A stretch of 64,000 bases of DNA. It comes from Phellopilus nigrolimitatus. Lineage: Eukaryota; Basidiomycota; Agaricomycetes; Hymenochaetales; Hymenochaetaceae. The DNA is taken from positions 1 to 64,000 of the forward strand of contig JAJOHG010000072.1 in assembly GCA_021029095.1 (NCBI GenBank), written 5' to 3'. This document shows positions 39,929-55,094 of this stretch, one piece after another (position 1 is the first letter of the stretch; each line of letters begins with the position of its first letter). The notes below the pieces were generated by a model. The model searched no databases, was not told the DNA's origin, and was given only the letters and a program-made list of their open reading frames with translations. Made by a program: the position numbers and the translations under genes.

Positions 39929-41162
39929 CAGTCACATGCCAAAAGTTTATGCCGGTTGTCACGTCACACCACAACAACTTCGCCTCGTACCACAACCACC
40001 ACTGATCCGATCATGCCCAAAGAGATTGGAGAACATAACCTTACTCCTTCTCAACGTTATGCCATAGTTAATTTGGCTAATTCTCATCTAAATCAGGCTC
40101 ATATTGCTACTGCTCTCCAGTGCTCTGAACGGACTGTCCGTCAGGTTCTCAAGAACTACCGCGATCGAGGCCATGTTGATGACTTACCCAGGAGTGGACG
40201 CCCACCCAAAATTGATGACAGGGGCTTGCGTCGCCTGGAGCGCTCAGTTGATGGCAACAGACGCCAAACACTTGCCGACATCACCCATGATTTCAACAAC
40301 AATCTCTCCTCCCCAGTGGCACCCAGGACCATCCAAAGGGCCTTACATCGTAACTTGGGCCTGTATTCACGCCATGCACGCAAAAAACCCTTCCTGACCG
40401 ACGACCATAAGAAGAAACGGCTTGAATGGGGAACCACAGTAAAACACTATGGAAAGGAGGAATGGCACAGGGTTGTTTGGACAGATGAATCATCAGTAGA
40501 ACTTGGGAAAAGCTCAAGGGCCCCTCTGGTATGGCGACGCCCTCACGAGGAATTCGACGAGAAGTGCCTGGCACCCACTTTCAAGTCAGGAAGGACGAGT
40601 GTCATGGTTTGGGGGTGCATTGCCTACAACAAGAAGGGCCCCCTCATTTTTATGCCCAAGGACAAGCGGACAGGCAAGGATTATGTGGAGTTGATCATGG
40701 CAGGACCCCTCTGGGACTTTTATGCGGAGTTGTATGAGGAGAGGGGGGTTGCAAAGGTCATGGAAGATGGGGCACCAGTTCACAGATGCAATGTGGCAAA
40801 AAGATTCAGGGACAGGAACTTCATGGAGACATTTCCCCACCCAGCTCAGTCACCAGACATGAACCCCATTGAACATGTTTGGTATCTGATAAAAATCGCA
40901 ATCAACAAGAGGCCGGAAAAACCCAGGAGCGAGGAGGCATTGAAGAGGGCGCTTTTGGAGGAATGGGAGAAGATTGACATTGAAATAATTAATTCTCTCA
41001 TAAACAGCATGCCTAAACGTGTGGAGCGGGTACTGGAGGCCAGAGGAGGGTCCACCAAGTATTAGATTGGCAATATATTTTGTGGTTGTGGAGTAATGGA
41101 GCAAAAACTTTTCGAGAGTTACATGGATGTCACACCCGGCATAAACTTTTGGCATGTGACTG
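39929..41162 (+). mobile_element. Apparently intact Tc1-like transposon nested in the Copia element
   Basis: 1234 bp with 27-bp perfect terminal inverted repeats starting CAGTCACATGCCAAAAGTTT, flanked by TA (39927-39928 and 41163-41164). Deleting it with one TA rejoins the Copia reading frame (..SQRQY to ITDLLERF..), which shows precise insertion after Copia was in place. Confidence 0.95.
40013..41065 (+). CDS. Tc1-type DDE transposase (DD34E)
   Basis: 350 codons from the ATG at 40013; upstream codons in frame lack another ATG. The N-terminal paired-like helix-turn-helix DNA-binding region includes LTPSQRYAIVNLANSHLNQ and CSERTVRQVLKNYRDRG, followed by the GRPPK hook. The catalytic triad is D158 (VVWTDESS), D252 (VMEDGAPVHR) and E287 (DMNPIEHVW) with 34 residues between the last two, the canonical Tc1 spacing. 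No stop or frameshift is present, so the enzyme could be active. It cuts and pastes elements carrying its 27-bp ends and could in principle mobilise related non-autonomous copies. Confidence 0.95.
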   Translation: MPKEIGEHNLTPSQRYAIVNLANSHLNQAHIATALQCSERTVRQVLKNYRDRGHVDDLPRSGRPPKIDDRGLRRLERSVDGNRRQTLADITHDFNNNLSSPVAPRTIQRALHRNLGLYSRHARKKPFLTDDHKKKRLEWGTTVKHYGKEEWHRVVWTDESSVELGKSSRAPLVWRRPHEEFDEKCLAPTFKSGRTSVMVWGCIAYNKKGPLIFMPKDKRTGKDYVELIMAGPLWDFYAELYEERGVAKVMEDGAPVHRCNVAKRFRDRNFMETFPHPAQSPDMNPIEHVWYLIKIAINKRPEKPRSEEALKRALLEEWEKIDIEIINSLINSMPKRVERVLEARGGSTKY

Positions 41163-44100
41163 TACTGGCGCTGAGATAGGGATAGGGATCGGATTGAGCG
41201 GTCTCTCTCAATATGGACGCCAAGCAGGAAGGAGGTAGGGCCGAGGTCGCGCAGTTTGAAGTGCTTTTCAAGTTCGCGCTTGACAAACAAGAATTGCTCC
41301 TTCGACTTTGCAGCAATGGTCATGTCATCCACATAGACTGCGATGATGATGCGCACATCGTCACGTCTGTAGACCCAAATGCTGTTGTCGCAGCGAACCA
41401 AAGAGAATCCCATGCCCTTCAACACAGAGTCAAGTTTCTTGTGCCATTGGCGCCCAGCTTGCTTCAAACCATAGATCGCCTTAGCAAGCTTAAGCACAAA
41501 ACCGGCACCATAGTACTCCTCAAACCCTTCTGGCTGGTCCATATAAACGTCATGATCCAAGTCACCATTGAGGAACGCAGTGGAGATGTCAATACTGAAC
41601 AACTCCAGGTCCTCAATTGCAGCCAAGGCAAGTATAGCGCGAAGTGCAGCCCACTTGGCAGTAGGAGCAAACACCTGTGCAAACTCTAAGCCAGGGTGCT
41701 GTGAGTAGCCCTTTGCCACCAATCGTGCCTTGTGCCTGTCCACTGAGCCATCTGCCTTGCGCTTGAGTTTGAACACCCACCGACAGCCAATGGTCTTACG
41801 ACCAGAAGGAAGTCTGACTGGGGTGAAGGTGCCATTCTCAACAAGACTGATAAACTCGTCCATTGCAGCCTGTTCCCAGAGGGAAGCGTCAGGGCGTCCC
41901 TTGATGTCTCTCCAGTGTACTGGCTCAGGACCATACTGGGTGCGCACCTCCGCAGAGAAGACATGCTCAAAGCAGTTTGTAGACTTCAACACATGATTGT
42001 GTGCGTCCTCAAAACTGATGTAGCAGTCCTCAAGTGCCGCATTTGCCCCAAAGTCCATAAGCCCAGCAAACATAAGTGCCTCAGCCTGCATTTCATCCTC
42101 AGACATGATGTCTAACTCATCACTGCGCTCAATCACAGGCTCAGGTGTAGGTGCTGCTGCTGGTGCTGGTGCAGCTGGAGTCCTAGGAATGCGACGACCT
42201 GGATAATCTGCAAGTGGATTAATCACTGCATCTCTGTACCCATGCATGGGACGCGGCTGAGGTCGCCAGGACGTTGAAGGCCAAGAAGGCGCTTCAGGTG
42301 CAGGTGTAGACTCAGGTGCAGGAGTGGGAGCAGGAGGTTCCTTGGGTCGTTTTGCAGGTGGAGGGTGAGCAGAAGGAGAAGACACAGGAGGGTCAGGAGG
42401 GACATCAGATGGTGCTCGCTCGCGCTTTACAGCAGGCCGAGTTGGAGTCACCGGAGGTGGTGCAGGACGAAAAGGAGGAGTGACTGGAGCTGGTGGGGGA
42501 CGAGGAGGAGGAGTAGCAGGACGAGGAGGAGGAGCTGGTGGATTAGCAGGGAGAAGAAGTGGCGGAACATCATCCACATCGCCATCTCCCCCTTGTTCCG
42601 GCACAGCTGTAGCCTCTGGAGGAGTTGGAACCCTTAAGTCAACAGGAGACCTGGTATTTCCAGGGAACACGCGCTCATCAAACTGGGCAGAGTCACTAAT
42701 GACCTCTTTGCGCATTATGGAGTTCCAGAATATCCAGCCTTTGTAGTTCTCAGGGTAACCAATGAAGGAGCATTTCTGCGTGTGTGACTGGAGCTGTTTG
42801 CGCATATCTTTCTTGACATGCACATAGGAGGTGCAGCCAAATACTCGAAAATGCGACACATCCGGCTTGGAATTGTGCCACAGCTCATAGGGTGTCTTGC
42901 CCTGAACAGCAGAAGTAGGAGAGCGATTGTGCACATGAACAAAAGCATTGACCGCGTCCCACCAGAAACTGGCAGGTAGGTGTGCTTCGTTCAGCATGGT
43001 GGTAATGCCCTCAGCCAAAGTGCGATTTGCTCGCTCAGCTACTCCATTCTGGTGGGGTTCATCACGAACAGTGTGTTGCCGGTGAATCCCTTCAGAAATG
43101 CAGAATTGCTCCCATGCCTTGGGCATGTACTCTCCTCCCTTGTCATCGCACGTCGCTTTGATCTTCAGGTTGAGCTGGTTCTCTGCATGTGCTTTGTAGT
43201 GCTTGAAAGCGTCAAACACATCGCTTTTCTTCTTAAGGGGTATGACTCCCCAGCGCCGACTGTAATCATCAATGAATGTGATCCAGTAACGATAACCATG
43301 CCGAGTTTGAACTGGCAGAGGGCCATGCACATCAGAGTGGACCAGCTGCAACAGACCAGTAGAACGATGGGATGCAAGTCTTGAGACATTAGACCTATGC
43401 TGCTTGCCTGCAATGCACGGCTCGCAGATTGGGTCAGGCGACTCCATAGACTTCACAATAATCCCCTTAACCATGTCATGATCAATCAGTCTCTTGACAT
43501 CCCCATGATTCAAGTGCGCAAAACGACGATGCCAGAGCGTTAAGTCGAGTGGACAGGTGCTAACCATGCCAGAGAATTGGGTCATGGGCACAACTTGTCC
43601 ATTGAGGAACGCGGCGTAGTTGGTTGAAAGAGCGGACAGTCCCCATTCCAACTGAGTAAATAACGTCGTTGTTGGCAAGGCAGATGGGTGTGCGATTAGG
43701 GGTATATTGGTTGAACCAATGACGATGAGGTGTCATGTGGCAAGTGGCGCCTGTATCAACAATCCAGTCAAATCCTGCATCAGAGAGGAGGGGCGAGTTG
43801 GGATTTGTGAAGTCATGGGTACTTGCATTGCCAGCAAATTCAGCAGACTGAGTCGACTCAGTGTCCTCCTGCGCCGCATTCGCCTTTGTCTTGCCTCCCC
43901 TCTTCTTCTTGTCCTTCAACTCCTTCATTGCATCACGACGCTTGTAGCAAGTTGCTTCAAGGTGGTTCTTCATGCCGCAAAAATCACAGACAAGAGGCTG
44001 AGATGAGGAGGAAGACGATGAAGTTGATTTGGAGGGTGGAGCAGAGGCCTTGAGAGCGAGTGCAGAGTCTGCAGCACGAGGGCCACTGGCTTTCTGCTCC

Positions 44101-44892
44101 TGCGAGAACGCTTTCTTGACTGTCTCGAGGGTGAAGGTAGGCATGAGAAGGAGGGCAGATCGAAAGGCTTTGTACTCGTCTGGGAGGGCGCGAATAAGAC
44201 ACATGGACGCAAGCTCATCCTCAAACTGGACAAGGGTGAGCTTGGAGCTGCGCGCATTCCTGAGCTTGTGCAACGACTCCTCAACACGAGCAGTGAGAGC
44301 AGTAAGCGACTCGTCCTCGGCTTTGGCAATGCTGAAGAACTCGTCATAGGCAATAAAACACGATGCTGCATTGTCCTGCTGGTTGAGCTCCTTCAGCTTC
44401 TTCAACATCTCCACTGGGTTACCCAAATCGTCCTGAACTAGGATCTGCATGCCATGCTCGAGTTTTCCGTAGATAAAGCCAGCTGCTTGCTCCGATTTCT
44501 CCTCCCATGCCTCCTGCTCCTCTGCCTTTGATGGTTTCATTGCAATGCCAGAAGCGATGCGCCAGAGAGTCTTGGCTTGGAGAGCAGCTCGCATTTCGAG
44601 TTTCCATGTTGCATAGTTGCTGTCATTGAGCTTAGCGAAGGAAAATGTCGATTGCGAGTCGGAGGTGGTAGATGCGGACATGGTGATGCGAATGATGGTA
44701 GATGATGGTGATGCGAGTGAGAGTGCGAAGTTGGGGATCAATCGGACAAGTGGTTGGGGCGTGATGGCCGAAAATGTGTACAAGCCGAATTATGTGATTT
44801 GCAGATATCAGGTCAACTTGGGTAGTGGCCACTGCTTCGCATGGCAGGTTACGATCCTGGTTGGTAGCCAGTTCGAGTCATTCCCATCATGG

Positions 44893-47626: not shown

Positions 47627-48871
47627 CTATTCCTTCAGATACTCTACACAACTAGCACAGTAGTTTTCTACTATATCTTTTGTTCTTGGCTCAAAACGCA
47701 AAGCGGATTTCCATTGTTTGGGCTTCCTTGGCTGCTTTGCGCCAGTACGTATTTCATTTAGATGGGTTTGGTACCAGTCCTCACAGGTTTGTGTCCAGTA
47801 CCCTACACTCATCCCACTTGCTAACCAGGGCTTGTACTTTGGCCACCACGACATATCGGTCATTTGGTTTTTGATAACTAAACTTTTTTCAGCCTTGTCT
47901 TCTGTTACTTGACAAATACTGCTTACCAGTTGCCACTTTGTAAACCCCACAAACTAAATCTGTCTCATCCTGTGTAAGTTCATCATCCCATACCTCATTG
48001 CCCATTAAGTCCATACTGCTGCCATATTTTGAAACATCGTCTGAAGGTCCTTCTATCACAACCTGTAATCCTAGACTCTCCATTGCCAACCTCCAGACTA
48101 TACCTCCCTTCAGAAGTGCTGCTCGACCTCTTGGTTGTTGAAGAAAGTTATTCCGAGCAGCCTCGTATGCTGCATAATCTGCTGCAGTGAATGTATAGGA
48201 TTTTGGTCGGTATCCAAGCACATCCCATTCAACATATCGTATGAGGAGGTCGCGTTTGATACCTGGTATTCTTTCCATGGTCCTGAACTGCATTCCGTTC
48301 TGAACCAGGGTTTGTATGATAGTGTATACCGAGTTATCAGCCCGACGCAGAAGGAAAAGGACAATACAGGCATTAGGAATGAGGATCCAATACTTTGTGT
48401 CTGCAAAGTCTTTTGGTTCAATACAATACCAAGAATGACCATTGACTTCACAGATAGTGTATCTCGCTTGAGATGGTATTCTGCCAATATATCTGCTGCT
48501 CATTGGGTTGAAGTCATTGTATAGATACGTGTTCTTCTTGTTGACCAAATGTTCCAAGTAATCCATCATGTGCTGGATTTCAGATTCATCTCCTTGCAGA
48601 CTGATATTGCGGTCTTTCATCAGGATATTAGTGCGTATACATTCCATTGCATATTCTCGAGTCTCAGTCAGACTGGCTGGAACAGATGTTGGATTTATAT
48701 ACCCATAATAGGGCATACCACGAGTCCCTAGAACCCGTGGGTACCCATGACCCGACCTGGACAACAGATCCGCATTCACGGATCGCCCGTGTACGGGTGA
48801 TCCGTGGGAAACGGATTGTCGCGGGTCCGGGTTGAGATTTTTCAAATTTTCAATACCCGTGGGTAATTTCC

Positions 48872-49259
48872 ACGAACAACGTCTCCTTTGCGCTCTTCCA
48901 CCCGAACCTGCCGCTGCTCATCAGCGGCAGCGAGGATGGCACCATCGAGAACACGCACAGCTACGCGCTCGAGCGCCCGTGGTGCGTCGCCGTGCACCCG
49001 CACGCGAACGACGTCGCGGTCGACTCCGGTGAGGGCGTCGTCGTCGTTAAGCTCGGTCGCGACGAGCCCCCCCTCAGCATGGACCCGCCGACAAGCTCAT
49101 CTACACGCGCAGCACCGACGCGCTCTCCGCGAACCTGCAGGCCGCCGTGGACGTCGAGATCCCTGAGGGCCAGCGGATCCAATTCCCCGAGCTCGAGCTC
49201 GTCTCGACGGAGCTCTACGCAACCTCGCTGCAGCACTCCGAACGGGCGCTTTATCACGC
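48872..49259 (+). pseudogene. SEC27: Captured fragment of coatomer beta' (beta'-COP), in Pack copy 1
   Basis: It reads NNVSFALFHPNLPLLISGSE, DGTIE, then YALERPWCVAVHPHANDVAV, VKLGRDEPPLSMD, then in another frame LIYTRSTDALSANLQAAVDV and TSLQHS..NGRFIT. This is the WD40-to-central-domain junction of beta'-COP, a COPI vesicle coat subunit. The stretch between DGTIE and YALER that normally holds WHSNTYR-like sequence is missing, and at least two frameshifts are present, so no functional coat protein can result. Only a small part of the gene of about 850 residues is included. Confidence 0.75.
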
Positions 49260-49448
49260 TGCGCTCGAATCCGGCGCTGATATCGGAGACAAGGGTGTTG
49301 AGGAAGCTTTGGCCATCATCGCGGAGATCTCAGATAAGTACGTTTGTTCTTGCCTTTCATTGATTGGACCTCCCTCGCTGAACCTCATAGAATACTAATT
49401 GGCCGTTCCTCGTCCTTCACCACGATGCCTGAGCCTTCCCGCCGCACT

Positions 49449-50111
49449 TGCCGCCATTTCCCGCTCTCTACCTCTACCCGCTCAACAACTCTTTCGTTCC
49501 CAAGCACATCAGCCTTCTCAACAACCAGCGAGTAAAGATCGGACGACAGACCAACGCGAAAGACCAACGCGAAAGAATGTCCCCGAGAACACAATGGCTA
49601 TTTCGACTACAAGGTCCTCAGTCGCCAGCATACCGAGGTCTGGGAGGAGAGCAACAAATTCTTTATAAAGGATGCCAAGAGCTCGAATGGCACATCAATA
49701 AACGGCGAGCGTCTGTCTGCAGAGGGTGTCGAGTCAGAACCGTACGTGCTTAAATCGGACAAGTCAGTAGTCCTCTTCTACCTTCTCCCTTCCCGCGCAT
49801 CATTAGCCTAACAAGAATTTGGTATCGACATAGTTGGATGTGAATGATGACGAGCGCAGTGCACGGCGACATGAGCTCGGTCGGCCACGAACACCTGAAC
49901 CGTCGTCGCTTGGCATGCACGAAGACGATTACGAGTGGGAGCGGTAGCGTGGACGGATGCTACCTTCGCAGCCTCCCGGTATTCCAGACGAGATGACACG
50001 ACGTCTCGCATTCCTTTCTGACCAGCTTGAGTCTGCCCTCGAGTTGTCGCGGAACCTGCAGGCACAGCACTCCGCTGCACAACAAACCATTGATTCTCTC
50101 GAGAACAAGGT
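49449..50111 (+). pseudogene. Captured FHA-domain / coiled-coil gene fragment, in Pack copy 1
   Basis: It reads LYPLNNSFVPKHISLLNNQR, KIGRQTNAK, then in a shifted frame NGYFDYKVLSRQHTEVWEE and KDAKSSNGTSINGERLS. GR, SRQH and SSNGT/ING are the phosphothreonine-binding motifs of an FHA domain. After an intron (about 49763-49831) come a hydrophilic stretch and the coiled coil RLAFLSDQLESALELSRNLQ. A perfect 13-bp tandem duplication at 49549-49574 breaks the frame inside the FHA domain. The source resembles fungal SLMAP/Far10-type FHA proteins (inference). Confidence 0.7.
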
Positions 50112-50645
50112 ACTCTGCGCGCGTGCTCATCTTGCGGCATGCACGGAGCGCGGGCGCCCTGCCCCGCACGTGCTGCGGGGGCGTGTGATAAAGGAGATGC
50201 CCGCGCGCGGCGCGGATTCAGCAGAGGGCGGGGAGGAGACGCAAGGAGGGGGAGAAGGCGCGGAATACGCAGAGGAAGGAGGCGGGAGGACTGCAGAAGG
50301 CTCAGTGAGCGACAAGGAGGATGAGGAGGAGAACGAGGCGCTGTACGCTCTCGTCAGGTGCCTCGCGTTCAGTCCTGACGGCCAGTGGCTCGTGACAACA
50401 GACGACCGCTGCCAGACGCACATCTTCAACCTGGGCGCCGAGCAGGTATCGTCCCCCTCCTCTCGTTTCGTCCATTCCCGAAGCCGTGCTGACGCGAACA
50501 AACGCAGCACCATACCACGCTGCCCACGTCGCCCGCGCCCATCGGCACGGGAGGGTAGCGGCAGCGCAGGGTGCTCCCGCTGCTCACGTACACCGACACG
50601 ACGCTCGTGGTGTTCGACGTCGAGGCGCGGCGCTTCCCCGTGCTA
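50112..50645 (+). pseudogene. UTP4: Captured fragment of WD40 processome protein, UTP4-like, in Pack copy 1
   Basis: A Glu/Gly-rich acidic tract leads into EALYALVRCLAFSPDGQWLV, TTDDRCQTHIFNLGAEQ, a GT..AG intron (about 50446-50506), then HHTTLPTSPAPIGTGG, a stop, and further on TDTTLVVFDVEARRFPVLTR. This matches a mid-protein WD40 region of Utp4/cirhin, part of the t-UTP complex in the nucleolus. The in-frame stop and missing flanks make it non-functional. The assignment is from memory of family motifs and could be a related WD40 protein. Confidence 0.55.
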
Positions 50646-52255
50646 ACCCGCTCAATAACATCTAACATATTTTCTTTTGTCTTTATAATTATAATAAATC
50701 TATATTTAATTGGTTTAAGATCCGCAGGGAGCCGTGAACAAACCCGTGACCCCCGTGACCTGGACCCACGGGTTTGGGGCGACCCGTGAATCCGAGTCCC
50801 AACGGGTCCAGGTCAAGCCGGGTCCGGGTTGAGGATTTTGGGTCACGGGTAGATCCGCCAACAGGTCCGGGTCAACCCGGGGATCGACTCGTGGTATGCC
50901 CTAACCCATAATGCATGTATAGAGCTTGGTTGACCGTTGTTGCTGTGAACCTAATATGTGCAGAGGTACCCTCAATTTGATATGAAAGTTGAACCTCGTG
51001 TTCCCATTGCTGGGCTGACGCTAACTCTTGTTCTTCATGTGGAGGTAGACCTGAACCTATTCTCAACTCCTCGGTTTGGATTTCCTGTGCGTCCTCAGTT
51101 GGCTGATTGTTGTTATCGCAGGAGCTGTCTGTAGGGTCGATGTCTGTGCACATATCCCATTCATCTGTGTCCGCGTTGTACACCTTTTGTTTGTCATTGA
51201 AGTACTTCCAATCCACATAAACAAGGGTGTTGCGAACAGGTACTCTCAGCCTATGACCGAAGACATTGCACACATCCCATCGATAAACTCTTGCTCCACG
51301 AGCTTGCGGGCATGCCATAGAGTCTGCACGAACCTGCCTGTTCTCTCTGACAATACGTCTGTGAGATGACTCCATTGTACGCTTCTTTTCATGCTCCAGT
51401 TTCTGCCGAGCTAAGAAATCCATGACATTTTCACCTCTCAGCTGACGAGTACCGTGTATGGGCTCTGGGTATGGATTACCATTCGGGTCTGCAATTGGTC
51501 GTTGGTTTGAGCTCAGAACCCAGGTATTGTGGTTCATATCATAGCTAGGTACAGGTGGGATCTCGATGTGTCGAGAAGCAATGAATCTCTCTCTAGATGG
51601 GCGAATTCTGTCTGCCAGCAAATGCCCCATTCTGAAATTTGGGTCACCTGTTCCCCAGTGAATCCAGATGGGTGCTTTTGCTAGCACAAGCTGTCGGAGC
51701 ATGCTAGGTGTGAGATTTGTTTGAAATGTATTGACAAATGCGCCTGCTCTCTGGATTGTGATGTCGCCCACATCTGACAATAATAGATCATTCACCCATG
51801 CTGGATGGGCGCCTAGTCCATCTGTCAGCAGCTTAACCCAAGGTAGTGGGCCGTCCTCAGCAGGATTGTGTGTTTCTGAGTGGTGCTCCATAATTGCAGA
51901 TGTACACATTGCCATGAGAGGGAGAAATGCGTCTCTAGATCTCAGAGCTTTCCTCAATGCCGTCTGGGGATTATTATGGTGACTTTGATATCCAAATTAG
52001 GGCATACCACGAGTCGATCCCCGGGTTGACCCGGACCTGTTGGCGGATCTACCCGTGACCCAAAATCCTCAACCCGGACCCGGCTTGACCTGGACCCGTT
52101 GGGACTCGGATTCACGGGTCGCCCCAAACCCGTGGGTCCAGGTCACGGGGGTCACGGGTTTGTTCACGGCTCCCTGCGGATCTTAAACCAATTAAATATA
52201 GATTTATTATAATTATAAAGACAAAAGAAAATATGTTAGATGTTATTGAGCGGGT

Positions 52256-52789
52256 TAGCACGGGGAAGCGCCGCGCCTCGACGTCGAACACCACGAGCGT
52301 CGTGTCGGTGTACGTGAGCAGCGGGAGCACCCTGCGCTGCCGCTACCCTCCCGTGCCGATGGGCGCGGGCGACGTGGGCAGCGTGGTATGGTGCTGCGTT
52401 TGTTCGCGTCAGCACGGCTTCGGGAATGGACGAAACGAGAGGAGGGGGACGATACCTGCTCGGCGCCCAGGTTGAAGATGTGCGTCTGGCAGCGGTCGTC
52501 TGTTGTCACGAGCCACTGGCCGTCAGGACTGAACGCGAGGCACCTGACGAGAGCGTACAGCGCCTCGTTCTCCTCCTCATCCTCCTTGTCGCTCACTGAG
52601 CCTTCTGCAGTCCTCCCGCCTCCTTCCTCTGCGTATTCCGCGCCTTCTCCCCCTCCTTGCGTCTCCTCCCCGCCCTCTGCTGAATCCGCGCCGCGCGCGG
52701 GCATCTCCTTTATCACACGCCCCCGCAGCACGTGCGGGGCAGGGCGCCCGCGCTCCGTGCATGCCGCAAGATGAGCACGCGCGCAGAGT
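52256..52789 (-). pseudogene. UTP4: Captured UTP4-like WD40 fragment, in Pack copy 2
   Basis: Mirror of 50112-50645, with the same intron and in-frame stop. Confidence 0.55.
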
Positions 52790-53452
52790 ACCTTGTTCTC
52801 GAGAGAATCAATGGTTTGTTGTGCAGCGGAGTGCTGTGCCTGCAGGTTCCGCGACAACTCGAGGGCAGACTCAAGCTGGTCAGAAAGGAATGCGAGACGT
52901 CGTGTCATCTCGTCTGGAATACCGGGAGGCTGCGAAGGTAGCATCCGTCCACGCTACCGCTCCCACTCGTAATCGTCTTCGTGCATGCCAAGCGACGACG
53001 GTTCAGGTGTTCGTGGCCGACCGAGCTCATGTCGCCGTGCACTGCGCTCGTCATCATTCACATCCAACTATGTCGATACCAAATTCTTGTTAGGCTAATG
53101 ATGCGCGGGAAGGGAGAAGGTAGAAGAGGACTACTGACTTGTCCGATTTAAGCACGTACGGTTCTGACTCGACACCCTCTGCAGACAGACGCTCGCCGTT
53201 TATTGATGTGCCATTCGAGCTCTTGGCATCCTTTATAAAGAATTTGTTGCTCTCCTCCCAGACCTCGGTATGCTGGCGACTGAGGACCTTGTAGTCGAAA
53301 TAGCCATTGTGTTCTCGGGGACATTCTTTCGCGTTGGTCTTTCGCGTTGGTCTGTCGTCCGATCTTTACTCGCTGGTTGTTGAGAAGGCTGATGTGCTTG
53401 GGAACGAAAGAGTTGTTGAGCGGGTAGAGGTAGAGAGCGGGAAATGGCGGCA
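52790..53452 (-). pseudogene. Captured FHA/coiled-coil fragment, in Pack copy 2
   Basis: Mirror of 49449-50111. It carries the same 13-bp tandem duplication (53327-53352), so that lesion was already present in the source element. Confidence 0.7.
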
Positions 53453-53641
53453 AGTGCGGCAGGAAGGCTCAGGCATCGTGGTGAAGGACGAGGAACGGCC
53501 AATTAGTATTCTATGAGGTTCAGCGAGGGAGGTCCAATCAATGAAAGGCAAGAACAAACGTACTTATCTGAGATCTCCGCGATGATGGCCAAAGCTTCCT
53601 CAACACCCTTGTCTCCGATATCAGCGCCGGATTCGAGCGCA

Positions 53642-54029
53642 GCGTGATAAAGCGCCCGTTCGGAGTGCTGCAGCGAGGTTGCGTAGAGCTCCGTCGAGAC
53701 GAGCTCGAGCTCGGGGAATTGGATCCGCTGGCCCTCAGGGATCTCGACGTCCACGGCGGCCTGCAGGTTCGCGGAGAGCGCGTCGGTGCTGCGCGTGTAG
53801 ATGAGCTTGTCGGCGGGTCCATGCTGAGGGGGGGCTCGTCGCGACCGAGCTTAACGACGACGACGCCCTCACCGGAGTCGACCGCGACGTCGTTCGCGTG
53901 CGGGTGCACGGCGACGCACCACGGGCGCTCGAGCGCGTAGCTGTGCGTGTTCTCGATGGTGCCATCCTCGCTGCCGCTGATGAGCAGCGGCAGGTTCGGG
54001 TGGAAGAGCGCAAAGGAGACGTTGTTCGT
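53642..54029 (-). pseudogene. SEC27: Captured beta'-COP fragment, in Pack copy 2
   Basis: Mirror of 48872-49259 with no difference seen, including both frame breaks. The shared breaks show that they arose before the two insertions. Confidence 0.75.
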
Positions 54030-55094
54030 GGAAATTACCCACGGGTATTGAAAATTTGAAAAATCTCAACCCGGACCCGCGACAATCCGTTTCCCACGGA
54101 TCACCCGTACACGGGCGATCCGTGAATGCGGATCTGTTGTCCAGGTCGGGTCATGGGTACCCACGGGTTCTAGGGACTCGTGGTATGCCCTAATCCAAAT
54201 CTGTGTGGCAATGGGAAAAATCCAGAATCCAGATGGTGTAGTCCACCTGCATGCTGGGTCAAATAACATGCCACAGTGTGCAGCCTAATCTCGAGTGAAA
54301 ACCACCTCTCAGCCAAAGTTCGGTCAAGGTAATAGAAGTCGTCAACTTTTTCAATCGGAAGACGATGACCGAGTCGATCGAAGATGTCTCCCTCAAATTT
54401 AGGCCTGCGAGGAATCAGGGCCATAAATGGGTGTTTATCTGTAAATTGCTGGGGCTGTTTGAGTTCTCGAAGTGGGATTTGCGTCTGCATCAATGGGAGC
54501 TCAGGTACATAGTTTGCATTAAATGCTAAGAAGCAATGCCCTTGGTAATACAATATGTTTGACATATCAGCCAGTTGCACACGTGGTTGGATTTCCTGAG
54601 TCAATTGTATAAGTACTCTATTTGTTTGTTAGACATGTCGTGATGATGTGACTTACTGCCATGGAACCCCTGTGTATCTTGTCCCCTGCAAGCGAAATGC
54701 TAAGACACTCTGTGTTTCCTATTGCAGTACGAACCAAGCCCAGTCCAATTACGATGTTTGCTGATGTTGCAAGATGTGTCGGAAGATGGCTCAGTTTGTG
54801 ACTGTAATACAATCACAACCTGGAGCGGGGAATAATGATGCAGATGCCTGGCGACAAGTCCTTTGGATTCTACTGCAAATGTCCTTAAGTGTTTTTTGCA
54901 AATGCAGATGAGTACTTTGGTGTGCTCTCTATTGGGTATGAGGGAAAGTACTTACTGAAGTGGCTCCTGGTGTCGGAAAGCAAGCTGCAAGGATGATGTT
55001 ACGAGTTGAGCCCAAAACAGCTTCCCGAAACAGCTTTCGAACTCTGTTACAATAATGAAATTCAAATGAATATTTTCTACCATTACACACGCAA

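Follow-up and report, generated by a model that had tools for sequence, protein, structure and literature searches.

The two near-identical elements that lie in opposite orientation in the window, the whole 64,000-nucleotide stretch of Phellopilus nigrolimitatus DNA that was analysed, are very probably a single Pack-TYPE hAT element (copies A and B) that was moved in trans and inserted twice into one host gene, with genomic DNA of three host genes as its cargo. Both copies are exactly 2195 bp long in window coordinates and bear the perfect 18-bp terminal inverted repeat (TIR) TAGGGCATACCACGAGTC, and pairwise comparison of A with reverse-complemented B revealed a difference at 1 of 2195 bases, namely, position 732 of A (window position 49440), which on A's strand is C in A and T in B. 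The coordinates of the features are collected in Table 1.

Table 1. Features of the twin elements and of the interrupted host gene, in window coordinates (TSD, target site duplication)
Feature	Coordinates	Strand	Basis
Element A, nonautonomous Pack-type hAT	48709..50903	+	TIRs and 8-bp TSD; ends common with transposase-bearing element
Element B, inverted second copy with one mismatch to A	51998..54192	-	Direct comparison with A
TIR of A, first end, 18 bp	48709..48726	+	Sequence comparison
TIR of A, second end, 18 bp	50886..50903	-	Sequence comparison
TIR of B, 18 bp	51998..52015	+	Sequence comparison
TIR of B, 18 bp	54175..54192	-	Sequence comparison
TSD ACCCATAA, left of A	48701..48708	.	Single copy in both empty sites
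TSD ACCCATAA, right of A	50904..50911	.	Single copy in both empty sites
TSD ATCCAAAT, left of B	51990..51997	.	Single copy in both empty sites
TSD ATCCAAAT, right of B	54193..54200	.	Single copy in both empty sites
Coatomer beta' (COPB2) fragment in A, internal deletion	48871..49376	+	PDB coatomer beta' 1.8e-18; 83-84% to C23, C612
FHA-domain-gene fragment in A, two pieces and internal deletion, intron kept	49406..50136	+	88% and 90% to C555 donor
WD40-gene fragment in A	50131..50640	+	82-88% to C1 and C176
229-aa chimeric ORF in A, FHA-gene coil part and WD40 gene in frame	49957..50646	+	Open frame
229-aa chimeric ORF in B, same as in A	52255..52944	-	Open frame
Family-wide end region, about 157 bp	48709..48865	+	Matched by all 19 other elements compared
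Family-wide end region, about 171 bp	50733..50903	+	Matched by all 19 other elements compared
Interrupted host frame, 3' part	47889..48708	-	777-codon frame intact in both empty copies
Interrupted host frame, middle part	50904..51997	-	777-codon frame of empty copies
Interrupted host frame, 5' part	54193..54628	-	End approximate, mapped from L011

Two insertions in one host gene

Each element is flanked by a perfect 8-bp TSD of its own, that of A differing from that of B. The genome contains the host segment twice more, at C598 and C390 (42 and 45 mismatches to the interrupted segment in 4111 aligned bases), and both of these copies are empty at both insertion sites. The duplications are real, because each empty copy holds one ACCCATAA and one ATCCAAAT at the corresponding positions, and the same comparison sets the TSD length at 8 bp. 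At each of the two sites the host DNA occurs once and in the same order as in the two empty copies, in each of which a 777-codon frame runs intact across both insertion points; this frame had no Pfam match and as a full-length query recovered three distant relatives, while a fragment query recovered itself and one weak match. The different TSDs and the doubly empty host copies therefore support two separate, recent insertions into one host gene, although gene conversion could have homogenised A and B and made the insertions older than they appear. A first-pass annotation of this DNA had described two 2195-bp elements with 18-bp TIRs, one base apart, each with its own perfect 8-bp duplication, as independent, very recent and opposite insertions in one gene; its coordinates and single mismatch were reproduced, and the remainder of that description is borne out by the distinct TSDs and the two empty host copies.

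We suggest that the two insertions, which are oppositely oriented and 1.1 kb from each other, probably arose when the element hopped locally by cut-and-paste at about the time of DNA replication. It is very unlikely that the arrangement is an assembly artefact, with only one insertion present or with two single-insertion alleles merged into one contig: the assembly comprises 635 contigs and near-identical matches are paired on different contigs, as from a dikaryon, but a false copy would be without a TSD of its own, an argument that leaves merged alleles compatible with the data. Less probable still is a single insertion followed by inverted segmental duplication, or by recombination that copied the element beside itself; the near identity, proximity and inverted orientation of A and B would suit such an event, but it was rejected in view of the differing perfect TSDs and of sites that are single-copy and colinear with two empty host copies.

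Gene fragments carried by the elements

The cargo of A and B joins intron-containing pieces of genes for coatomer beta', an FHA-domain protein and a WD40 protein, with donors elsewhere in the genome, and the five sense-strand frames of A that were scanned contained no transposase domain; host gene fragments and the lack of a transposase had both been proposed from the first reading of the sequence. Element A thus holds host gene DNA between family ends without a transposase, as Pack-TYPE elements do. The coatomer donor at C23 contains a 398-aa frame that matches coatomer beta' at 1e-142, and a similar copy is present at C612. A further candidate, C603:30800-34500, was rejected because its 251-aa frame did not match coatomer at 1e-10 and the match to coatomer in that region is broken; C23 is the better donor. 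Structure searches gave no name for the WD40 donor, which we tentatively liken to UTP4/cirhin.

As inferred from the reading frame and GT-AG borders, the cargo of A retains one intron of the FHA gene and the beginning of another from the coatomer gene. It is extremely improbable that a Helitron acquired this DNA, or that it came from transcripts, instead of being taken up from the genome by a TIR element. Helitrons, which reportedly capture genes in Pleurotus, have no TIRs and no TSD and insert between A and T, whereas A and B display 18-bp TIRs with 8-bp TSDs, which are not Helitron features. Capture of histone H3 by fungal hATs has been described as transcript capture in one report (PMC6710886), but such a route is contradicted for the FHA piece because its intron was retained, and the start of the coatomer intron argues in the same direction; both routes were rejected on the basis of the introns, TIRs and 8-bp TSDs. 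The cargo would instead be genomic DNA of three host genes, introns included, that was put together earlier and has been drifting since; capture may have proceeded by repair with template switching or by nested insertion and re-mobilisation.

The frame of the chimeric ORF is open in A and B and also at C24 and C18. Its WD40 part gave dN/dS values of 0.87-0.96 against the donor, and the ORFs of A and C24 gave 1.02 on 8 changes; drift is therefore the default for the chimeric ORF, for which a function was also considered. The C18 and C24 ORFs differ by 1 synonymous and 11 nonsynonymous changes, too few for a reading. The dN/dS was 0.19-0.25 on 55 codons for the coil part and 0.42-0.49 for the FHA parts, values that may stem from constraint acting on the lineage of the donors.

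The TIR family and its transposase-bearing members

A genome search with the 18-bp termini, which the first-pass annotation had put forward as a check, returned 164 matches with at most one mismatch (79 forward and 85 reverse), against 0 forward and 0 reverse matches for the reversed TIR in the same search. Perfect 8-bp TSDs were present in 30 of 33 fetched elements, A and B included; the other three were C564 (4 of 8 matching) and both C423 copies, in which inversion could explain the missing TSD. Both ends of A were common to 19 of 19 other elements compared, the interiors differing, and one nested family member bears its own TSD. The cargos within this one TIR family are varied, as expected of Pack-TYPE elements: host-gene matches of several kinds were found in 7 of the 13 elements scanned, with no Pfam domain in the other 6, and pieces of CPSase, RpS19-Argonaute, EF-G, ARPC3 and FTR1 occur in other members, the donor of another cargo being located at C2 (94%). 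The sequences constitute a large Pack-TYPE hAT family, of which the twin elements are one part; it extends across the genome and combines many cargos with partners that encode transposase.

These partners are relatives of 5.6-6.6 kb that share the ends of A and encode a hAT transposase. The elements at C423 and C603 have 18-bp TIRs identical to those of the A/B family, and their spliced transposase C termini matched Dimer_Tnp_hAT at 40.8 and 35.2 bits (cut-off, 21.4 bits), in agreement, together with the 8-bp TSDs, with the initial assignment to the hAT superfamily. Three introns are possible in C423, and the 62-bp intron was chosen because C603 permits only the corresponding one. The unspliced Dimer_Tnp_hAT exon fell below the cut-off and had no PDB match, and the N-terminal and catalytic exons had no Pfam match as single frames; a genome-wide Dimer_Tnp_hAT search did not recover the transposase of this family, in which the domain is split by an intron. 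We infer that a longer relative of this kind, located elsewhere in the genome, supplies transposase in trans to A and B.

Significance and comparison with known systems

Gene-fragment shuffling by TIR elements has so far been studied mainly in plants. A single 56-Mb genome here unites varied cargos with introns, transposase-bearing partners, donors, empty sites, a nested compound element and very recent twins, and the question of gene pick-up is therefore directly testable in a small genome. We raise, with considerable doubt, the possibility that this mushroom-type fungus has an active hAT system that repeatedly copies, fuses and re-inserts genomic pieces of many host genes (coatomer, FHA, WD40, CPSase, RpS19, Argonaute, EF-G, ARPC3 and FTR1); chimeric ORFs would arise in frame, and perhaps also transcripts with an effect on the donor genes.

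Pack-MULEs of plants likewise enclose fragments of a single gene or of more than one between TIRs, but they belong to the Mutator superfamily and have Mutator ends and 9-bp TSDs, in contrast to the hAT affiliation and 8-bp TSDs of A and B. The Pack-hATs of maize and rice (Gisby and Catoni 2022, PMC8903248) are nonautonomous hATs that have TIRs and 8-bp TSDs and contain captured DNA of genes; that account reports that members of the same cluster had inserted locally and that DNA was acquired via neighbouring insertions, and its main text contains neither "fung" nor "animal". These elements are from plants, however, and 12 of 15 local pairs in maize have the same orientation, whereas A and B are inverted. 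Among the reports examined, fungal cases comprise transcript-derived histone H3 in hATs and, in a Tc1/mariner element, a single open reading frame (PMC3538342, PMC6710886). The histone H3-carrying hAT of Pyrenophora tritici-repentis, with a 5.6-kb form containing transposase and a 2.3-kb form, was termed the first fungal DNA-transposon transduplication (Manning et al. 2013, PMC3538342); it resembles A and B in being a fungal hAT whose TIRs enclose a captured host gene but has one cargo gene, in contrast to the many cargos, genomic DNA and three-gene fusions found here. Histone H3 hATs also occur in Pseudocercospora, Cercospora and Sphaerulina (Dhillon et al. 2019, PMC6710886), and those of Pseudocercospora fijiensis and its relatives, with TIRs of 18-20 bp, resemble our family in their 8-bp TSDs and in having captured coding sequence of the host, but carry one transcript-derived gene in elements of about 9.5 kb with RIP-damaged copies. 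The initial view that gene-fragment capture is hardly described for fungal hATs is qualified by these histone H3 precedents. The matches listed in the open-licence literature included no hAT family of a basidiomycete with gene fragments as cargo. The Pack-hATs of plants and the H3 hATs of Dothideomycetes are precedents; what looks new is that a family in a basidiomycete has captured genomic DNA as many different cargos.

The inverted twin and its host gene

Elements A and B lie at the coordinates given in the first-pass annotation, each 2,195 bp long; as it had stated, one is the reverse complement of the other with 1 mismatch, and both bear the perfect 18-bp terminal inverted repeat (TIR) TAGGGCATACCACGAGTC, with a different perfect 8-bp target duplication around each. 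A genome search placed the A-B spacer at two further sites: contig C598, colinear with the window from ~46.8 kb to its end at 64 kb, gaps included, and contig C390, colinear from ~46.8 to 58.6 kb, with only scattered pieces beyond. Both copies are empty and carry one 8-mer copy at each site, which upholds the earlier reading of two separate insertions. A 777-codon frame spans both sites and is unbroken in C598 and C390, so that each element landed in an open frame; the interrupted protein matched no Pfam family, and of the three distant relatives retrieved for it two are named (Favolaschia and Mycena).

Over three aligned blocks around the sites, the window differs from C598 at 42 and from C390 at 45 of 4,111 bases, and at these divergences the probability of no more than one difference in 2,195 bases is ~4e-9 and ~1e-9, respectively. 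The likeness of A and B therefore postdates the host-copy split, whether through insertion or through later gene conversion. Each empty copy could be an allele or a paralogue of the host segment. Paired near-identical matches on separate contigs (for example C68/C16, C335/C128, C31/C478, and C33/C633) suggest that the assembly keeps alleles of a dikaryon unmerged. In C598 and C390 the corresponding flank of the host segment is crowded with relatives of the window's Copia-type copies. DUF6534, presumably a basidiomycete family, gave 39 matches in this genome versus none in 14 control genomes.

Coordinates and flanking 8-mers of the features discussed
Feature	Location	Strand	Flanking 8-mers
Tc1/mariner-type transposase, open 369-aa ORF (HTH_Tnp_Tc3_2, DDE_3)	window 39956-41065	+	
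Copia-type retroelement frames (gag_pre-integrs, rve, RVT_2)	window 40850-44783	-	
Element A	window 48709-50903	+	ACCCATAA
229-aa chimeric ORF	window 49957-50646		
Element B	window 51998-54192	-	ATCCAAAT
Second inverted twin, 6.6-kb elements	C423:5721-19284		GCTCAAAG/GCTCCAGG (one copy); CTTTGAGC/CCTGGAGC (other copy)
Nested pair, outer element	C434:196381-200639		GTTGGTAG
Nested pair, complete inner member (TIRs with 2-3 mismatches)	L039:721-2804		AGAGACGC
Region of ~3 kb with further ORFs, upstream of transposase	L040:51-3288; L058:983-3300		
Upstream ORF scanned	L058:1910-2563		

Captured gene fragments and the wider family

The host gene fragments previously noted in the elements proved to derive from three donor genes located elsewhere, fused in A and B in one orientation. 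The coatomer beta' piece of A (PDB match, 1.8e-18) matches its donor on C23 at 83-84%, and a 398-aa frame there matches coatomer beta' at 1e-142; two pieces (88% and 90%) correspond to an FHA-domain gene on C555 (FHA domain, 54 bits), and others (82-88%) correspond to a WD40 gene on C1, with a near copy on C176. WD40 Pfam matches in A itself fell under the cut-off. A and B keep an FHA-gene intron (donor gtcagt...ctaacag) and the beginning of one from coatomer (gtacgt), both judged from reading frame and border sequence, so that the capture was of genomic DNA. The 229-aa ORF joins the coil part of the FHA gene in frame to the WD40 part; it is also open in B, C24 and C18 each extend it by 11 codons, and no selection is apparent from rates of change. 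Beyond C23, C612, and the examined elements, coatomer beta'-like DNA occurs in twelve further fragments (82-86%; two on C623 and one each on C603, C434, C35, C83, C631, C625, C555, C162, C170, and C334), perhaps other carriers or decayed copies.

A genome-wide search for the termini, as had been proposed, returned 164 places with at most one mismatch (79 forward and 85 reverse) and none in either direction for a reversed-TIR control. Pairing drew on 100 of the 164 places, 78 of which form 39 elements (14 of 431-474 bp, 22 of 1,786-2,897 bp, and 3 of 4,259-6,592 bp), with 22 left unpaired. Where both flanks were read, the 8-bp duplication was perfect in 30 of 33 elements, the exceptions being C564 (4 of 8 bases alike) and both C423 copies. 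The two ends of A (~157 and ~171 bp) are common to all 19 other elements compared, and most interiors differ; its nearest relatives are C24 and C18 (97-99%), followed by C57 (84% over 1 kb).

Scanning of the longest ORFs gave a host-gene domain or match in 7 of 13 elements and no domain at cut-off in 6 (C614, C90, C13, C83, C334, and C346). Besides the coatomer match of A, the cargo comprised FHA (C57; 39.8 bits), the CPSase pre-ATP-grasp domain (C38; 132 bits), RpS19e and Argonaute Piwi (C43; 83 and 151 bits), S1 (C255; 23.3 bits, cut-off 22), FTR1 (C564; 26.5, cut-off 25.3), and, in the nested C434 pair, EF-G domains III and IV (inner) and ARPC3 (outer; 27.2, cut-off 25). The C38 cargo has a donor on C2 (94% over 1.3 kb), a contig with no exact TIR among the matches listed. 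An RpS19 piece is common to C83 and C43, and coatomer-derived pieces of A recur in C90 and C614. The Argonaute part of C43 has 32 other places at 72-90% identity among the matches listed, some probably on duplicated contigs, and P. nigrolimitatus appears to possess a large Argonaute-like family.

Transposase-bearing partners, twins, and nesting

No hAT domain was detected in the five frames of A scanned, in keeping with the reported lack of transposase. Two 6,592-bp elements on C423 share the 18-bp TIRs; the ends of the one read fully match those of A at 87% and 85%, and its C-terminal exons, spliced over a 62-bp GT-AG intron, match Dimer_Tnp_hAT (40.8 bits; cut-off 21.4), as do the joined C-terminal exons of a 5,556-bp element on C603 (35.2 bits; same cut-off). 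Seven transposase places are at least 78% identical to the C423 piece, and four (two on C423 and those on C603 and C488) sit inside elements with these TIRs. C488 and C603 may be one locus assembled twice, because their left flanks are the same and the C488 contig stops short of the element's right end. On C622 a TIR lies ~3.7 kb off, versus 0.5 kb in C603; among the matches listed, the closest TIR on C290 is >9 kb off and there is none on C4. A search with a 191-aa piece of the transposase gave 38 relatives (E <= 0.001), and the ten with a named organism (Polyporus, Cerrena twice, Pleurotus, Schizopora, Earliella, Armillaria, Mycena twice, and Lyophyllum) are all from mushroom-forming fungi. 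The ORFs upstream of the transposase are alike in C423 and C603, and the one scanned had no Pfam match.

The C423 elements form a second inverted twin, with a 380-bp gap and opposite transposase frames, in which the flanking 8-mers are exchanged between the copies. Exactly this exchange would result if two elements had inserted independently, each with a perfect 8-bp duplication, and the DNA between them had then been inverted; recombination between twin elements thus probably happens in this genome, and the focal pair is without it. Five neighbouring pairs, 380-7,741 bp apart, occur among the 39 paired elements against 0.31 expected, a count reached in 0 of 20,000 random placements, in a test that leaves out the focal pair and is weakened by TE-rich regions and duplicated contigs. 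Differing perfect duplications in the C13 and C90 neighbours indicate that these also are separate insertions.

Proposed mechanism and known systems

We suggest that the shared ends serve as recognition sites for the hAT transposase, which would mobilise the short elements in trans. The spacing of A and B, 1.1 kb, fits local transposition around replication, which is known for Ac/Ds. Cargo was probably gained at the DNA level, through repair with template switching or through nested insertion and re-mobilisation, both of which fit. The nested C434 element is the sort of intermediate predicted by the model of Gisby and Catoni, in which neighbouring insertions are re-mobilised (PMC8903248).

The same paper describes Pack-hATs in maize and rice (PMC8903248), and the family presented here is alike in design to the Pack-TYPE elements of plants but belongs to a different kingdom. 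The view that such capture is hardly described for fungal hAT elements must be qualified, since a 2013 study reported histone H3 captured by a hAT element in Pyrenophora, and called it the first fungal case (PMC3538342), and a 2019 study reported such capture in Pseudocercospora and its relatives; the authors of the latter treat both as transcript capture (PMC6710886). It stands to the extent that searches of the open-licence literature showed no hAT family of a basidiomycete with varied gene-fragment cargo. Multi-cargo genomic capture by a fungal hAT family, unseen in the available portions of the histone H3 reports, is what looks new here, on a Pack-TYPE design.
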